NCBI GenBank assembly: GCA_902595845.1
Contig: CACJRN010000003.1
Coordinates: 1-64,000 of the forward strand
Origin: an uncultured Gammaproteobacteria bacterium
GTDB lineage: Bacteria; Pseudomonadota; Gammaproteobacteria; Steroidobacterales; UBA11654
Direction of reading: 5' to 3'
DNA length: 64,000 nucleotides
Within the stretch, counting starts at the first letter, position 1, and every line of letters begins with the position of its first letter. Of this stretch, positions 7,077 through 44,052 are shown piece after piece. The translations under genes were made by a program, and so were the position numbers. The notes below the pieces were generated by a model. The model had not been told where the DNA came from. It saw only the letters and a program-made list of their open reading frames with translations, and did not search any database.

Positions 7077-7108
7077 CTTCCTATATTGGAAATTGGTTCT
7101 AAAAATAA

Positions 7109-7303
7109 TTAGGGTATTTCTACCTCACTAAAACAACTTACTTCGTTATATTCATTATTAAGATTGACACTGATAATCATTGGTCTACAACAAACAAAAC
7201 AGTCCTCAGTATACTCTTGCTGTAAAATAGATTTATCAATTACAACAGTCACCAACTCACCACAGCTTGGGCATCCAATTTCATACTCTTCAAGCAGACT
7301 CAT
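7109..7303 (-). CDS. CPXCG-motif cysteine-rich (zinc-ribbon-like) small protein
   Basis: 64 residues with the pattern CPSCGE near residue 15 and CFVCCRP near residue 41, matching the small CPXCG cysteine-rich family common in gammaproteobacteria. The two cysteine pairs probably bind one zinc ion. The function of the family is unknown. The acidic C-terminus (EYNEVSCFSEVEIP) is normal for it. It lies 16 bases upstream of the stop side of no other gene on its strand except the TonB receptor, which ends at 7320, so it may be read through from there. Confidence 0.85.
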   Translation of the reverse strand: MSLLEEYEIGCPSCGELVTVVIDKSILQQEYTEDCFVCCRPMIISVNLNNEYNEVSCFSEVEIP

Positions 7304-7319
7304 GCTTTGATTCTACAAT

Positions 7320-34814: not shown

Positions 34815-34865
34815 TCAAATTAAAATCATCAAATTGAATGATTAAAATATAATGGGGAAACAATA

Positions 34866-35081
34866 ATGACAAAAATATTTAAAATCCTTTCTTTATCCTT
34901 TTTTGCAATATTTCTAGCTGGCTGTAATTCTAATTCCGAACTAGAGAATCAAGTAGATGACTTGAAACAAGAATTGGCTGCAACTGAAGCTGAGCTTCTA
35001 GAAACAGAGGCTGAGCTAGAAGATCAAAAAAGTGCCGAAGAAGTTTGGGATGAGTTAGCGAGCAAGAAAACTAAGAAGTAA
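34866..35081 (+). CDS. Small coiled-coil lipoprotein, Lpp-like
   Basis: 71 residues: lipoprotein signal with lipobox LAGC (Cys19 or 20), followed by a heptad-like coiled coil (LENQVDDLKQELAATEAEL, then LLETEAELEDQ) and a C-terminal KKTKK. The tail ends in Lys as in Braun's lipoprotein, where the final Lys is joined to peptidoglycan, and an L,D-transpeptidase is encoded at 55696-56163. Sequence similarity to Lpp is only in design, so homology is not claimed. GGGGA lies eight bases before the ATG. The next gene converges after six bases. Confidence 0.8.
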   Translation: MTKIFKILSLSFFAIFLAGCNSNSELENQVDDLKQELAATEAELLETEAELEDQKSAEEVWDELASKKTKK

Positions 35082-35087
35082 ACTCTT

Positions 35088-40044: not shown

Positions 40045-40614
40045 GTGACAAAGCTTATCCTGGCATCAAGTTCTATCTATAGGCAAAAAATACTCAGAAA
40101 ATACTATTCTGAATTCAAATGCATCAGTCCTGATATCGATGAAACCCCATGCCTTAATGAAAAACCAATAAATTTAGCTGAGAGGCTTTCAAGCACTAAA
40201 GCTGAAAAGATTGCAATGGAGTTCACTGATCATTTTGTCATTGGCTCAGATCAAGTTGCATCATTTGATGAGCAAATTCTAGGAAAGCCAGGTAGTTATG
40301 ATAATGCATTAAATAATTTCAAAATGTTCAGGGGTAGAAGCGTCTTCTTTTATGCAGGTGTCTCACTTAGAAATGAGTCTCTAGGAATCAATAGAAATGG
40401 TATAGAAACAACTGAGATTAGATTTAAAGATTACTCAGATGAGGACATGAATAATTACCTTGATAGCCTTGATACATTTAACACCACAGCAGGGGTAAAG
40501 AGTGAGTCTGATCTCTTCAAACCCCTAGTCGATGAAATCATTTCAAATGATGAATATGCAATCATTGGCCTTCCAATCAATTGGATTTTAGATCAGCTTG
40601 CTGAATTTGACTAA
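40045..40614 (+). CDS. maf: Maf-family nucleotide pyrophosphatase (YceF type)
   Basis: 189 residues with a GTG start at 40045. LILASSSIYRQKIL is the Maf N-terminal motif, DIDETP follows, and SDQVASFDEQILGKPG contains the catalytic Asp/Gln region. YceF-type enzymes hydrolyse modified nucleoside triphosphates such as m7GTP. It lies between rluC and yceD and on the opposite strand to both, exactly as yceF does in E. coli. Its TAA shares the CTAA block 40611-40614 with the rluC stop. Confidence 0.96.
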   Translation: MTKLILASSSIYRQKILRKYYSEFKCISPDIDETPCLNEKPINLAERLSSTKAEKIAMEFTDHFVIGSDQVASFDEQILGKPGSYDNALNNFKMFRGRSVFFYAGVSLRNESLGINRNGIETTEIRFKDYSDEDMNNYLDSLDTFNTTAGVKSESDLFKPLVDEIISNDEYAIIGLPINWILDQLAEFD

Positions 40615-41561
40615 TCAAGAGAATTTATATTCAACAAAACAGCTTTGAGCTCCTCAGAAAGATCTGCTCTAAAGTGATAGTTTGAATTTGATATTTCAAA
40701 TTGAGGGAATGAAATTTCTGAAGCATGCAAGAAAAGACGTTTGAGACCAAAACTTTTCTTGATGATGTCATTCTTAATTCCGTATCGGATATCTCCAGCA
40801 ATTGGCATATTAATAAAGGCCGAATGAGCTCGGATCTGATGAGTTCTACCTGTGATCGGTGATATTTCAAATAATGAGGCATGACTGAAGCGCTTGACCA
40901 TTTTAAACTCAGTGATCGCCTTAAGTCCTTCTGGATCAATAATTGATTTTCTGTATTTATTGCTTCGATCTACTCGTATGGGTTGATCAATAACAAAGTC
41001 CTCTTCAACAGAATTACCTAAAAGGAGCGCTTGGTATTTCTTTTTGATTAATCCATCGCGAAAATATTGATGAAGCTTTCTCAGTATTGATCTTTTTTTA
41101 GCGATTAATATGATGCCGCTGGTCTCCTTATCAATTCGATGAACAAGTTCCAAAGTTTCATACTTTTTTTCTCGATGACGCCGAAGTAGCTCTATTAAGC
41201 CGAAGGAAACGCCGCTGCCTCCATGTACTGCTAGACCACTCGGCTTATTTACAACCAAAAAACCCTTTTCTTCATGCAAAATGATTTCATCGATCCAATT
41301 CAAATCCATTGCCTTGGTTGGATTTTTTTCCTTAGGATTGCCTGGCACTAAGTGTGGTGGGATTCTAATGAGATCATCTGTTTTTAGCCGAGTCATTGGC
41401 TTTGCTCTTTTTGAGTTGATTCGAACCTCGCCCTTTCTGATCATCGAATAGATTCTAGCTTTAGGTAAACCCTTAAGAGTCTTTAGAAGAAAATTATCAA
41501 GCCTCATTCCATCAGAATTGAGATCGATCAAGAGTATGTTATTTTTCTTTTCTTTCTTCAT
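40611..41561 (-). CDS. rluC: 23S rRNA pseudouridine synthase RluC
   Basis: 316 residues: S4 domain at the N-terminus (LDNFLLKTLKGLPKARIYSMIRKGEVRIN region), then the RluA-class catalytic domain with HRIDKETSGIILIAK, whose Asp is the nucleophile, and GRTHQIRAHSAFINMPIAGD. It makes pseudouridines in 23S rRNA (positions 955, 2504, 2580 in E. coli). Divergent from rne as in E. coli. N-terminus KKEKKNNILLI is more basic than usual. Confidence 0.96.
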   Translation of the reverse strand: MKKEKKNNILLIDLNSDGMRLDNFLLKTLKGLPKARIYSMIRKGEVRINSKRAKPMTRLKTDDLIRIPPHLVPGNPKEKNPTKAMDLNWIDEIILHEEKGFLVVNKPSGLAVHGGSGVSFGLIELLRRHREKKYETLELVHRIDKETSGIILIAKKRSILRKLHQYFRDGLIKKKYQALLLGNSVEEDFVIDQPIRVDRSNKYRKSIIDPEGLKAITEFKMVKRFSHASLFEISPITGRTHQIRAHSAFINMPIAGDIRYGIKNDIIKKSFGLKRLFLHASEISFPQFEISNSNYHFRADLSEELKAVLLNINSLD

Positions 41562-41597: not shown

Positions 41598-41624
41598 TTG
41601 AAAATTCATGATCTCTGCTATAAT
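41598..41624 (+). promoter_or_regulatory. rne promoter, extended -10
   Basis: TGC-TATAAT at 41616-41624 is an extended -10 with a consensus hexamer, the same arrangement as at 10541. Weak -35 matches are TTGAAA (41598, 15-base spacer) or TTGTTG (41595, 18-base spacer). Transcription should begin near 41631, giving a leader of about 240 bases. Confidence 0.65.
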
Positions 41625-41630
41625 GCCAAC

Positions 41631-41871
41631 ACAAAATATAGATTATTGATAGGAAAATAATCAAATGAATAGTGGAATGAGTCCACAAACTAATGACAAA
41701 AAGTCATAAAGATTTAATTAAACAAAGACAATTAGATAGAAAATCTTTGTTGGTAAAAAAAGGAATTTATAAGCATCTGTTGCGGATCAACAGATGAACC
41801 TTGGGCTTCAACCAAGGAACCAATAGAAAGAAACAAAGTTTCTATCCTGTTGCCTTAAAAATGAGGTAACC
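41631..41871 (+). promoter_or_regulatory. Structured 5' leader of rne with seven successive hairpins
   Basis: This is the longest non-coding stretch in the window (41562-41871). Stems seen: 41672-41686 (GTGGA/TCCAC), 41693-41707 (ATGAC/GTCAT), 41721-41751 (AACAAAGA/TCTTTGTT), 41774-41796 (nine pairs, CATCTGTTG/CAACAGATG), 41799-41817 (CCTTGG/CCAAGG), 41823-41845 (ATAGAAA/TTTCTAT) and 41849-41870 (GTTGCCT/AGGTAAC with one G-T pair). The last one includes the ribosome site GAGG (41863-41866). In E. coli the long rne leader binds RNase E and allows feedback control; this leader is probably the functional analogue. A 14-codon frame (41665-41709) overlaps the first two hairpins. Confidence 0.72.
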
Positions 41872-44052
41872 ATGAAAAGAATATTAATTAATGCGACTCA
41901 GCAAGAAGAGCTGAGAGTCGCAATGGTTGATGGTCAGAAACTCTATAACCTAGATATAGAATATGCTTCTGGCTCACAAAACAAAAATAATATATACAAA
42001 GGAAAAATAACTCGAATTGAGCCGAGTCTGGATTCTGTATTTGTTGATTTTGGCTCAGAAAAAAATGGATTTTTACCATTTAGAGAAATCTCAAGAGAAT
42101 ATTATTTAACCGAACCCATACCTGGTGAAAAGCACAACATCAAAAATCTATTTGAAGAGGGTCAAGAGATCGTTGTTCAAGTGGTTAAGGAAGAAAGAGG
42201 CACAAAAGGTGCTGCGCTAACCACTTATCTCAGTCTTGCTGGAAGATTCATGGTATTCAAGCCTAATAATTCAAAAGGAGGCGGTATATCAAGAAAAATC
42301 ACAGGCCGAGAAAGGCTTGATACTTTTGAGGTATTGGATCAACTGGATGCACCAGATGGTAGCAGTGTGATTGTTCGTACTGCAGGTGTTGGAAGACCAT
42401 TGATTGAATTGCAATGGGATCTTAACTACCTGGTAGGTATTTGGGATTCAATAAAGAAATTGGCATTGGATGCCAAAGCACCTGCACTGATTTTCAAAGA
42501 AAACAGTTTGATTGCCAGATCGATGAGAGATCATCTTGAAGATGACATAGGAGAAATCATCATTGATGATGAGGATACATATGAGAATTCAAAAAAATAC
42601 ATCAAACAAGTCAGCCCGAAAAACCTTAAAAAACTAAAGCATTATTCTGAAGCAACACCTTTATTCACCCGTTTTCAAATTGAAAACCAAATTGAATCAG
42701 CTTATTCGAATCAAGTGAGACTCCCTTCTGGAGGCACAGTTGTGATTGATTACACTGAAGCATTGATATCGATTGATATCAACTCTGGTAGAGCCACAAA
42801 AGAGTCAGACATCGAATCAACTGCCCTTCAAACAAACCTTGAGGCTGCGGAAGAAATTGCCAGGCAGTGTAGGTTGAGAGATATGGGTGGACTCATTGTT
42901 ATTGATTTCATTGATATGAGACAGTACAAAAATCAAAAAGCGATTGAAAATGCGATGAGAACAGCAGTAAGAAAAGATCGCGCAAGAGTCTCTGTTGGTG
43001 GTATTTCAAGATTCGGACTCATGGAGATGTCCAGACAACGACTCAGGCCTTCTCTGGATGATTCAGCCTATAAAATTTGCCCACATTGCAATGGAATAGG
43101 AAAAGTAAGAAGCACAGAATCCTTAGCGCTTTCTGTCCTGAGGCTGGTAGGCGAGGAAGCACGTAAGGAGAAAACAAAAAGTGTCATAGCAAATATACCG
43201 CCTGATGCTGCAAACTATCTCCACAATGAAAAAAGAGAATGGATCAATGAAATTGAAGAAAGAGAGAAGATCGATATCGTCTTGACCGCTGACCCAGAAC
43301 TTTCCAGTGTGAATTTTACCATTACTCGAGTCAGAACTGATGGGACTGAAATTCAAGGGGGTAGCAATACCCAAGCTCATTCCCATGGTGATGATAATAA
43401 AAAGAATGGATCAAGTAGTCGTCTGAATACAGAACACGAACCTGTAAAAGCTTGGGACATTGAGGACATGAGAGGACCAAATTTGATTGATAAGATTAAG
43501 TTCTGGTTCACTGCTCCAACGAAAAAGAAGAAGCCCTCAAAAAAGAAGAAGCAGCAACCGAGGAAAAAAGCTTCTGAGAAAAGATCAAGAAAATCTCACT
43601 CTTCATCAAGAGGCAAACCTAGATCCAATAAGAAGACAAAATCAGATGCTTCAAAAGCTGAGAAAGATAAAAAAAGAAAGAAGAAAGATCATTCTAAAGC
43701 GAATAAAAAAGCTTCTAAGAAACCATCTAAACAAAACAAAATAAAAGGTGATGAAAAAGATAGCAAGAAGAAGGTAACTAAAAAACCAACTAAGAAACCG
43801 CTCAAGAAAAAAGCAGAGCCTGAAGGTGACAAAAAGTCAGCAGATACAAAAAAAGCTGATGGCAGAAAGCCTAAACAAAGAAATAAAAAAGATGAAAAGA
43901 ATTCTCAGGTAAAGAAAAAAGAGTCGAAAACAAAGGTTGATAAAGAAATCAAAACCTCAGACTCAAAGAAAACCTCAACAAAAACTAAAAAATCTAGCAA
44001 AGCTACTAGCGATAAAGTTCTGCCTTGGGAAGATATCGTTCCTCCTAAATAA
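41872..44052 (+). CDS. rne: Ribonuclease E
   Basis: 726 residues. N-terminal S1 domain (YKGKITRIEPSLDSVFVDFG, about 42-61 onward), RNase H-like and DNase I-like parts with catalytic Asp302 (ISIDINSGRAT) and Asp345 (LIVIDFIDMRQY), and the Zn-link Cys403/Cys406 (CPHCNG), almost at E. coli positions. After about 535 comes an amphipathic helix (PNLIDKIKFWF) that should bind the membrane, then a Lys-rich disordered tail of about 170 residues that ends in VLPWEDIVPPK. The tail is far shorter than in E. coli (1061 aa) and very basic. It initiates mRNA decay and rRNA/tRNA processing. Confidence 0.97.
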   Translation: MKRILINATQQEELRVAMVDGQKLYNLDIEYASGSQNKNNIYKGKITRIEPSLDSVFVDFGSEKNGFLPFREISREYYLTEPIPGEKHNIKNLFEEGQEIVVQVVKEERGTKGAALTTYLSLAGRFMVFKPNNSKGGGISRKITGRERLDTFEVLDQLDAPDGSSVIVRTAGVGRPLIELQWDLNYLVGIWDSIKKLALDAKAPALIFKENSLIARSMRDHLEDDIGEIIIDDEDTYENSKKYIKQVSPKNLKKLKHYSEATPLFTRFQIENQIESAYSNQVRLPSGGTVVIDYTEALISIDINSGRATKESDIESTALQTNLEAAEEIARQCRLRDMGGLIVIDFIDMRQYKNQKAIENAMRTAVRKDRARVSVGGISRFGLMEMSRQRLRPSLDDSAYKICPHCNGIGKVRSTESLALSVLRLVGEEARKEKTKSVIANIPPDAANYLHNEKREWINEIEEREKIDIVLTADPELSSVNFTITRVRTDGTEIQGGSNTQAHSHGDDNKKNGSSSRLNTEHEPVKAWDIEDMRGPNLIDKIKFWFTAPTKKKKPSKKKKQQPRKKASEKRSRKSHSSSRGKPRSNKKTKSDASKAEKDKKRKKKDHSKANKKASKKPSKQNKIKGDEKDSKKKVTKKPTKKPLKKKAEPEGDKKSADTKKADGRKPKQRNKKDEKNSQVKKKESKTKVDKEIKTSDSKKTSTKTKKSSKATSDKVLPWEDIVPPK

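Follow-up and report, generated by a model that had tools for sequence, protein, structure and literature searches.

RNase E determines how fast mRNA decays, and the way in which it controls itself, worked out in detail mainly in E. coli, is a textbook example of a feedback loop. The window analyzed here, a stretch of 64,000 nt from a genome of 1.44 Mb, carries in front of rne a leader that may hold a compact version of this loop, in an uncultured marine lineage and with no Rfam family to describe it. Is this leader a conserved regulatory RNA and, if so, is it a separate invention or a local form of a known kind?

The rne locus

The leader is ~241 nt long (41631-41871), with a divergent pseudouridine synthase gene (40611..41561, minus strand; Pfam PF00849 and PF01479) on one side and rne (41872..44052, plus strand) on the other. 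The 726 aa product of rne has the layout of RNase E according to Pfam (PF00575, PF10150 and PF20833) and the ORF list, with S1, RNase_E_G and zinc-link regions followed by a lysine-rich tail; the neighbor of rne at this locus is rluC, as in E. coli K-12. An extended -10 promoter element, TGCTATAAT (41616..41624, plus strand), indicates that transcription of the leader probably begins near 41631, a start read from the sequence; the original prediction had opened the structured region at 41619, which falls inside this promoter. The pattern TG.TATA.T is kept in the alignment of related leaders, where the row of one member (L012) begins downstream of the element, which reads TTGTTATACT in that genome. 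No plus-strand terminator was found at the leader.

The gap before rne had also been proposed as the only long non-coding stretch of the window. A simple ORF scan gives it 310 bases and finds others of 311, 273 and 243 bases; the 311-base gap contains tRNA-Ser, and the other two (34815-35087 and 7077-7319) have no ORF of 90 codons. At the far end of rne, Pfam assigns no domain to the C-terminal tail of the enzyme (43360-44052), which is of low complexity and rich in lysine and serine; the source genome may thus have a reduced degradosome scaffold.

Folding energy and conservation of the leader

Positions 41631-41871 fold at -58.3 kcal/mol, well below the -34.1 +/- 4.0 kcal/mol of shuffled sequences (z = -6.1, 0 of 200 shuffles). 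Elsewhere in the 64 kb, 42 control windows of 241 nt have a mean z of -0.10 (sd 0.88, minimum -1.9). The same comparison was made in a family of 11 leaders, from the window genome, nine others of the same genus and one of a second genus: all fold better than their shuffles, with z from -3.0 to -6.4. Moreover, pairing is clearly conserved in all 11 members, and the whole architecture is present in each, consisting of an invariant core with three hairpins on its 5′ side and, over the ribosome site, a hairpin that is likewise invariant. Judged by energy and alignment together, the structure in the rne leader is real and conserved.

When two members (L019 and L020), whose GAUAGA motif had been misplaced by two alignments, were withheld from a covariance model, the model still detected them, at 1.8e-8 and 2.5e-8. 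In a search of 296 genomes of the order, each of the 11 family members gave a single match, located at rne, and the other 285 gave none. Further, neither the model (296 genomes) nor the ribosome-site pattern described below (10 genomes of the genus) matches before any gene besides rne. An Rfam scan of the leader, the window and its relatives matched no rne family outside E. coli.

Local hairpins and A/U-rich linkers

The leader had been described as seven tandem hairpins. Hairpins are indeed present; the count and their coexistence are not as proposed, as eight candidates are counted on the plus strand (41641-41662, 41672-41686, 41693-41707, 41721-41751, 41774-41796, 41799-41817, 41823-41845 and 41849-41870), not all of which can form together. 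In particular, a conserved long-range helix uses the loop of 41721-41751 and the 3′ arm of 41823-41845, and the latter hairpin is lost in distant relatives.

The three hairpins of the 5′ zone and the position of hairpin 6 are kept in 11/11 leaders, with stems that are unrelated in sequence in distant members. Hairpin 1 (41641..41662) pairs GAUUAUU with AAUAAUC in the predicted fold and is AACUUAU/AUAAGUU in L012; hairpin 2 (41672..41686), GUGGA/UCCAC in the window, becomes CUAGAUU/AAUCUAG in L019 and UAGAUUA/UAAUCUA in L012; hairpin 3 (41693..41707) changes from AUGAC/GUCAU to ACCCA/UGGGU in L018 and GGUC/GACC in L012; and hairpin 6 (41799..41817) changes from CCUUGG/CCAAGG to UUAGCAUUA/UAAUGCUAA in L019 and AGCAUUAUUUG/CAAAUAGUGCU in L012. 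An arm-swap test of these four hairpins within the family is descriptive only, since their arms had been picked as stems and the test is therefore circular. Hairpin 5 is, exactly as predicted, a perfect nine-pair stem (CAUCUGUUG/CAACAGAUG, 41774..41796); it shows a compensatory change from C-G to U-A in L013, L015 and L016, and the family alignment contains no clear equivalent beyond the nearest relatives.

Stems that persist while their sequence drifts are what simple protective elements would look like, and the hairpins could merely shield the 5′ end of a long-lived or slowly translated mRNA, with nothing being sensed. Such a stabilizing leader is quite unlikely, because the near-invariance of the core and of the ribosome-site hairpin goes beyond what protection needs. 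It is very improbable that the hairpins are sites for a regulator protein on RNA, of the CsrA type, or on DNA. GGA does occur in the loops of hairpins 1 and 5 in the window (41641-41662 and 41774-41796), as a CsrA target would have it; however, it is lost from hairpin 5 in L014 and L015 and from hairpin 1 in L013 and L014, and no CsrA gene was found in 10/10 genomes of the genus, which largely refutes a CsrA target leader. Control at the DNA level fits poorly as well, since the inverted repeat of the fourth hairpin has a loop of 15 to 24 nt among the 11 leaders, a spacing that varies by 9 nt where a DNA operator would have a fixed one.

Two A/U-rich linkers (plus strand) flank the core region. 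Linker A (41708..41719) contains AGAUU and linker B (41762..41773) contains GAAUU, both of the form RNWUU, which RNase E cleavage sites in Salmonella resemble (PMC5222698). An RNWUU motif occurs within the 16 nt preceding the core in 11/11 leaders and in linker B in 11/11, a motif frequent in any A/U-rich RNA; both linkers are putative cleavage sites.

A long-range helix at a near-invariant core

The main feature of the leader was missed by the original prediction. A long-range helix pairs GAUAGAA (41735-41741) with UUCUAUC (41840-41846), here called S2, and encloses a second helix, S3, in which UUGGU (41750..41754) pairs with ACCAA (41819..41823), all on the plus strand. The 5′ strands of both lie in a conserved core, AAACAAAGACAAUUAGAUAGAAAAUCUUUGUUGGUA (41720..41755, plus strand), that is near-invariant in the 11 leaders. 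The family contains two such blocks overall: the first reads AAACAAAGACAA..GAUAGA..AUCUUUGUUGGU and the second CCAAU..UCUAUC..GUUGCCU-loop-AGGUAAC-N-AUG. An unguided RNAalifold consensus returns S2, S3 and the ribosome-site hairpin (GUUGCCU/AGGUAAC), and counted over the 11 leaders, 99.3% of cells are paired, compared with 35-57% for slid partners. S2 is paired in 11/11 and has one compensatory change, from A-U to U-A, in L019 and L020. Most pairs are invariant and thus neutral evidence; likewise, the core varies so little that the family offers no separate covariation for S1 (described next), S3 or the ribosome-site hairpin.

The core could in principle be conserved as a small protein-coding frame instead of an RNA structure, and some 30 codons are open from ATGACAAAAAGTCAT in the window. 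This reading is barely conceivable: stops and indels of lengths other than multiples of three interrupt the frame in L013, L015, L017, L018 and L012, and the alignment refutes it.

The core also forms the local hairpin S1 (arms AACAAAGA/UCUUUGUU, 41721-41751, plus strand). S1 and S2 cross or compete, because GAUAGAA, in the loop of S1, pairs downstream in S2. For the window, model calculations give nearly equal energies to the two (-57.5 kcal/mol with S1 and -58.3 kcal/mol with S2; P = 0.30 and 0.38). S2 dominates in L018, L009, L019, L020 and L012, and S1 dominates in L017, where the long-range helix makes up 1% of the predicted ensemble. The 5′ strands of S1 and S2 are separated by 6 nt in nine leaders and by more in two, and about 2-5 nt separate the 5′ strand of S2 from the 3′ strand of S1. 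On these predicted folds, an H-type pseudoknot may let S1 and S2 form together; otherwise they would be alternative states.

The ribosome-site hairpin

The ribosome site GAGGU (41863-41867) lies inside the last hairpin, GUUGCCU..AGGUAAC (41849..41870, plus strand), which confirms the proposal that this hairpin pairs GAGG (from 41863). Its seven pairs are invariant in 11/11 leaders, with a loop that varies, and each of 10 genomes of the genus contains its pattern a single time, at rne. In L012, the hairpin makes up 1% of the predicted ensemble. More generally, in a set of 83 almost exclusively gammaproteobacterial rne starts, pairing of the ribosome site is more frequent than at other long ORFs (mean 0.73 versus 0.56; P about 1e-6, and 2e-5 without the source family), a comparison in which the control starts were taken mechanically from the same loci and related genomes are not independent.

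An invariant hairpin over the ribosome site, next to two structures of nearly equal energy that could coexist only as a pseudoknot, would suit a translational switch, where S1 and S2/S3 states, or the pseudoknot, answer to something besides RNase E (such as a ribosomal protein, small RNA, metabolite or temperature) and thereby control the opening of the hairpin. Same-order relatives add to this picture: there the long-range helix and the ribosome-site hairpin compete, because the 3′ arm of the former shares bases with the 5′ arm of the latter. In the source family, however, S2 and the hairpin do not overlap, and no strand joins the S1 and S2 states to the ribosome site; S2 also dominates in the five leaders named above, and no Rfam riboswitch or thermometer reached its cut-off in the leader or the window. 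Such a switch is therefore unlikely.

Comparison with other rne leaders

The original prediction held that the sequence differs from that of the E. coli leader, and this is borne out: the Rfam model of the latter, rne5 (RF00040), with a cut-off of 180 bits and a score of 260 bits in E. coli, has no match in the leader at E up to 10 and none at gathering in the window. In topology, the resemblance is considerable. Both leaders are long and directly upstream of rne, with rluC divergent upstream, and both continue from 5′ hairpins to a long-range helix that encloses further hairpins. In the E. coli consensus, 5′ hairpins are followed by a long-range outer helix, which an asymmetric internal loop separates from an inner helix with hairpins enclosed in it; the window leader shares the asymmetric internal loop and second inner helix, as well as closure shortly before the start codon. 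In contrast, the window leader is 241 rather than 361 nt long, has three small 5′ hairpins in place of two larger 5′ stem-loops, lacks the ACGCAGCAAUGGCGUAAGACGU block of the second E. coli stem-loop, and has an invariant ribosome-site hairpin that is absent from E. coli. The comparison extends to layout only, given that the E. coli leader folds no better than its shuffles (z = -0.66) and lacks a strong ribosome-site hairpin.

Other genomes of the order have long rne leaders too, many with the same kind of promoter. In 11 same-order leaders, a long-range helix links the mid-leader region to the bases immediately upstream of the ribosome site. Its arms have diverged in concert, a strong covariation: with their own partners they average -22.3 kcal/mol, compared with -17.6 +/- 0.9 kcal/mol when arms are swapped between species (matched by 0 of 5000 permutations); for the ribosome-site hairpin, the figure is 27 of 5000. 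The helix and the leaders were chosen by eye before testing, with alignment columns fixed for all sequences. The order leaders (L104, L107, L108, L113-L118) and the Steroidobacter-type leaders (L022-L029) are likewise long and have a ribosome-site hairpin, with stems GCCCC/GGGGC or GGCCCUU/AAGGGCC; the order leaders also share the extended -10 promoter and the covarying long-range helix beside the hairpin. Both groups differ from the source family in being entirely different in sequence, about 330 nt long and G+C-rich. A generic scan for long-range duplexes, run on 74 leaders from outside the family with shuffled 3′ arms as the control, was not significant (mean z = -0.55, 8% below -2), and the arm swap on the 11 same-order leaders is the one test of the two that is; the claim of a common layout therefore rests on the source family, the same-order leaders and E. 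coli.

These comparisons bear on the proposal of an independent solution suited to a small genome. The long-range branched topology is common to the E. coli leader, the layout recurs in unrelated, covarying sequence in same-order relatives with larger genomes, and the plan occurs in genomes of about 2-4 Mb; the restriction to a small-genome family applies to the particular leader sequence and not to its layout. Neither half of the proposal is upheld. The simplest reading of the sequences is that the window leader belongs to a shared kind of leader and has diverged within it; because no sequence similarity remains, common descent of the layout is something that we infer. Lineage-specific rne leaders have a precedent in the rne-II RNA motif (Rfam RF01756) of Pseudomonadales, a second structured rne motif besides rne5 (PMC2864571). 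rne-II itself matched 0 of 147 genomes of the order, the window included, with control genomes likewise silent. Overall, the window leader is real, conserved, lineage-specific in sequence and ordinary in kind.

Proposed mechanism of regulation

In E. coli, RNase E is regulated in cis by cleavage that acts through the rne 5′ UTR (PMC10989929), and the feedback involves binding of a leader hairpin (PMC3997798). In Synechocystis, RNase E cleaves its own rne 5′ UTR at a U-rich stretch (PMC10989929); this system differs in being cyanobacterial and in also using premature termination. The preferred reading of the window leader, with a probability of roughly 0.6, is an rne autoregulatory leader in a form specific to its lineage, which would set the RNase E level in cis, through a feedback that we infer. 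Hairpin 1, near the 5′ end, would hinder attack that depends on that end, and the ribosome-site hairpin would limit translation and so leave the message unprotected. Free RNase E would then recognize the branched S2/S3 region, or an S1/S2 pseudoknot, and, once docked there, cut the A/U-rich linkers, so that surplus enzyme destroys its own message; when RNase E is occupied by other RNA, the leader would survive and rne would be translated. The action would resemble that of the E. coli leader, with an added ribosome-site hairpin and a lineage-specific sequence.

A more specific version, which we regard as speculative and would not expect to hold, makes the leader a pseudoknotted RNase E sensor, in which S1 (CAAAGA/UCUUUG) and S2 form together around the invariant loop, and binding or cutting by RNase E decides whether the ribosome site opens. 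If so, many gammaproteobacterial rne leaders would be one ancient device, a long-range helix adjoining a ribosome-site hairpin, with its sequence rewritten in each lineage. Two features, the possible pseudoknot and the ribosome-site hairpin, deserve experimental attention.

Other possible leader families

The comparisons suggest that evolution keeps the layout, a long-range helix beside a ribosome-site hairpin, and not the sequence, which makes RNase E recognition a question that can be tested across lineages. They also point to several rne leader families that Rfam lacks. Eight of the order leaders (L104, L107, L113-L118) may contain an anti-sequestering switch, as the long-range helix and the ribosome-site hairpin overlap there, the 3′ arm of the one with the 5′ arm of the other (for example, CCAGGUGGCCCC in L107), and so exclude each other at least in part. 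Steroidobacter-type leaders (L022, L023, L025-L029, L031, L033, L035, L036 and L039) carry a strongly conserved block, GGACCATCGCTCGGCCGCGCG.ACGGCGATGCCGGACC.GCAACTCGGGATCCGGGTCGACG, about 150-330 nt before rne, which could fold as two hairpins; it is a candidate RNA family, and the two leaders scanned (L022 and L023) matched no Rfam family. Finally, six other gammaproteobacterial leaders (L051, L059, L066, L080, L088 and L089) have a AGGCCAATGTACTGCCTC-like element at about -175 from rne and GCAGT.CC.GGCC at about -35, near the start codon. These two pair over a long distance, in a helix interrupted by an internal loop, and next to it lies a ribosome-site hairpin of the form GGCC..AAGGC.
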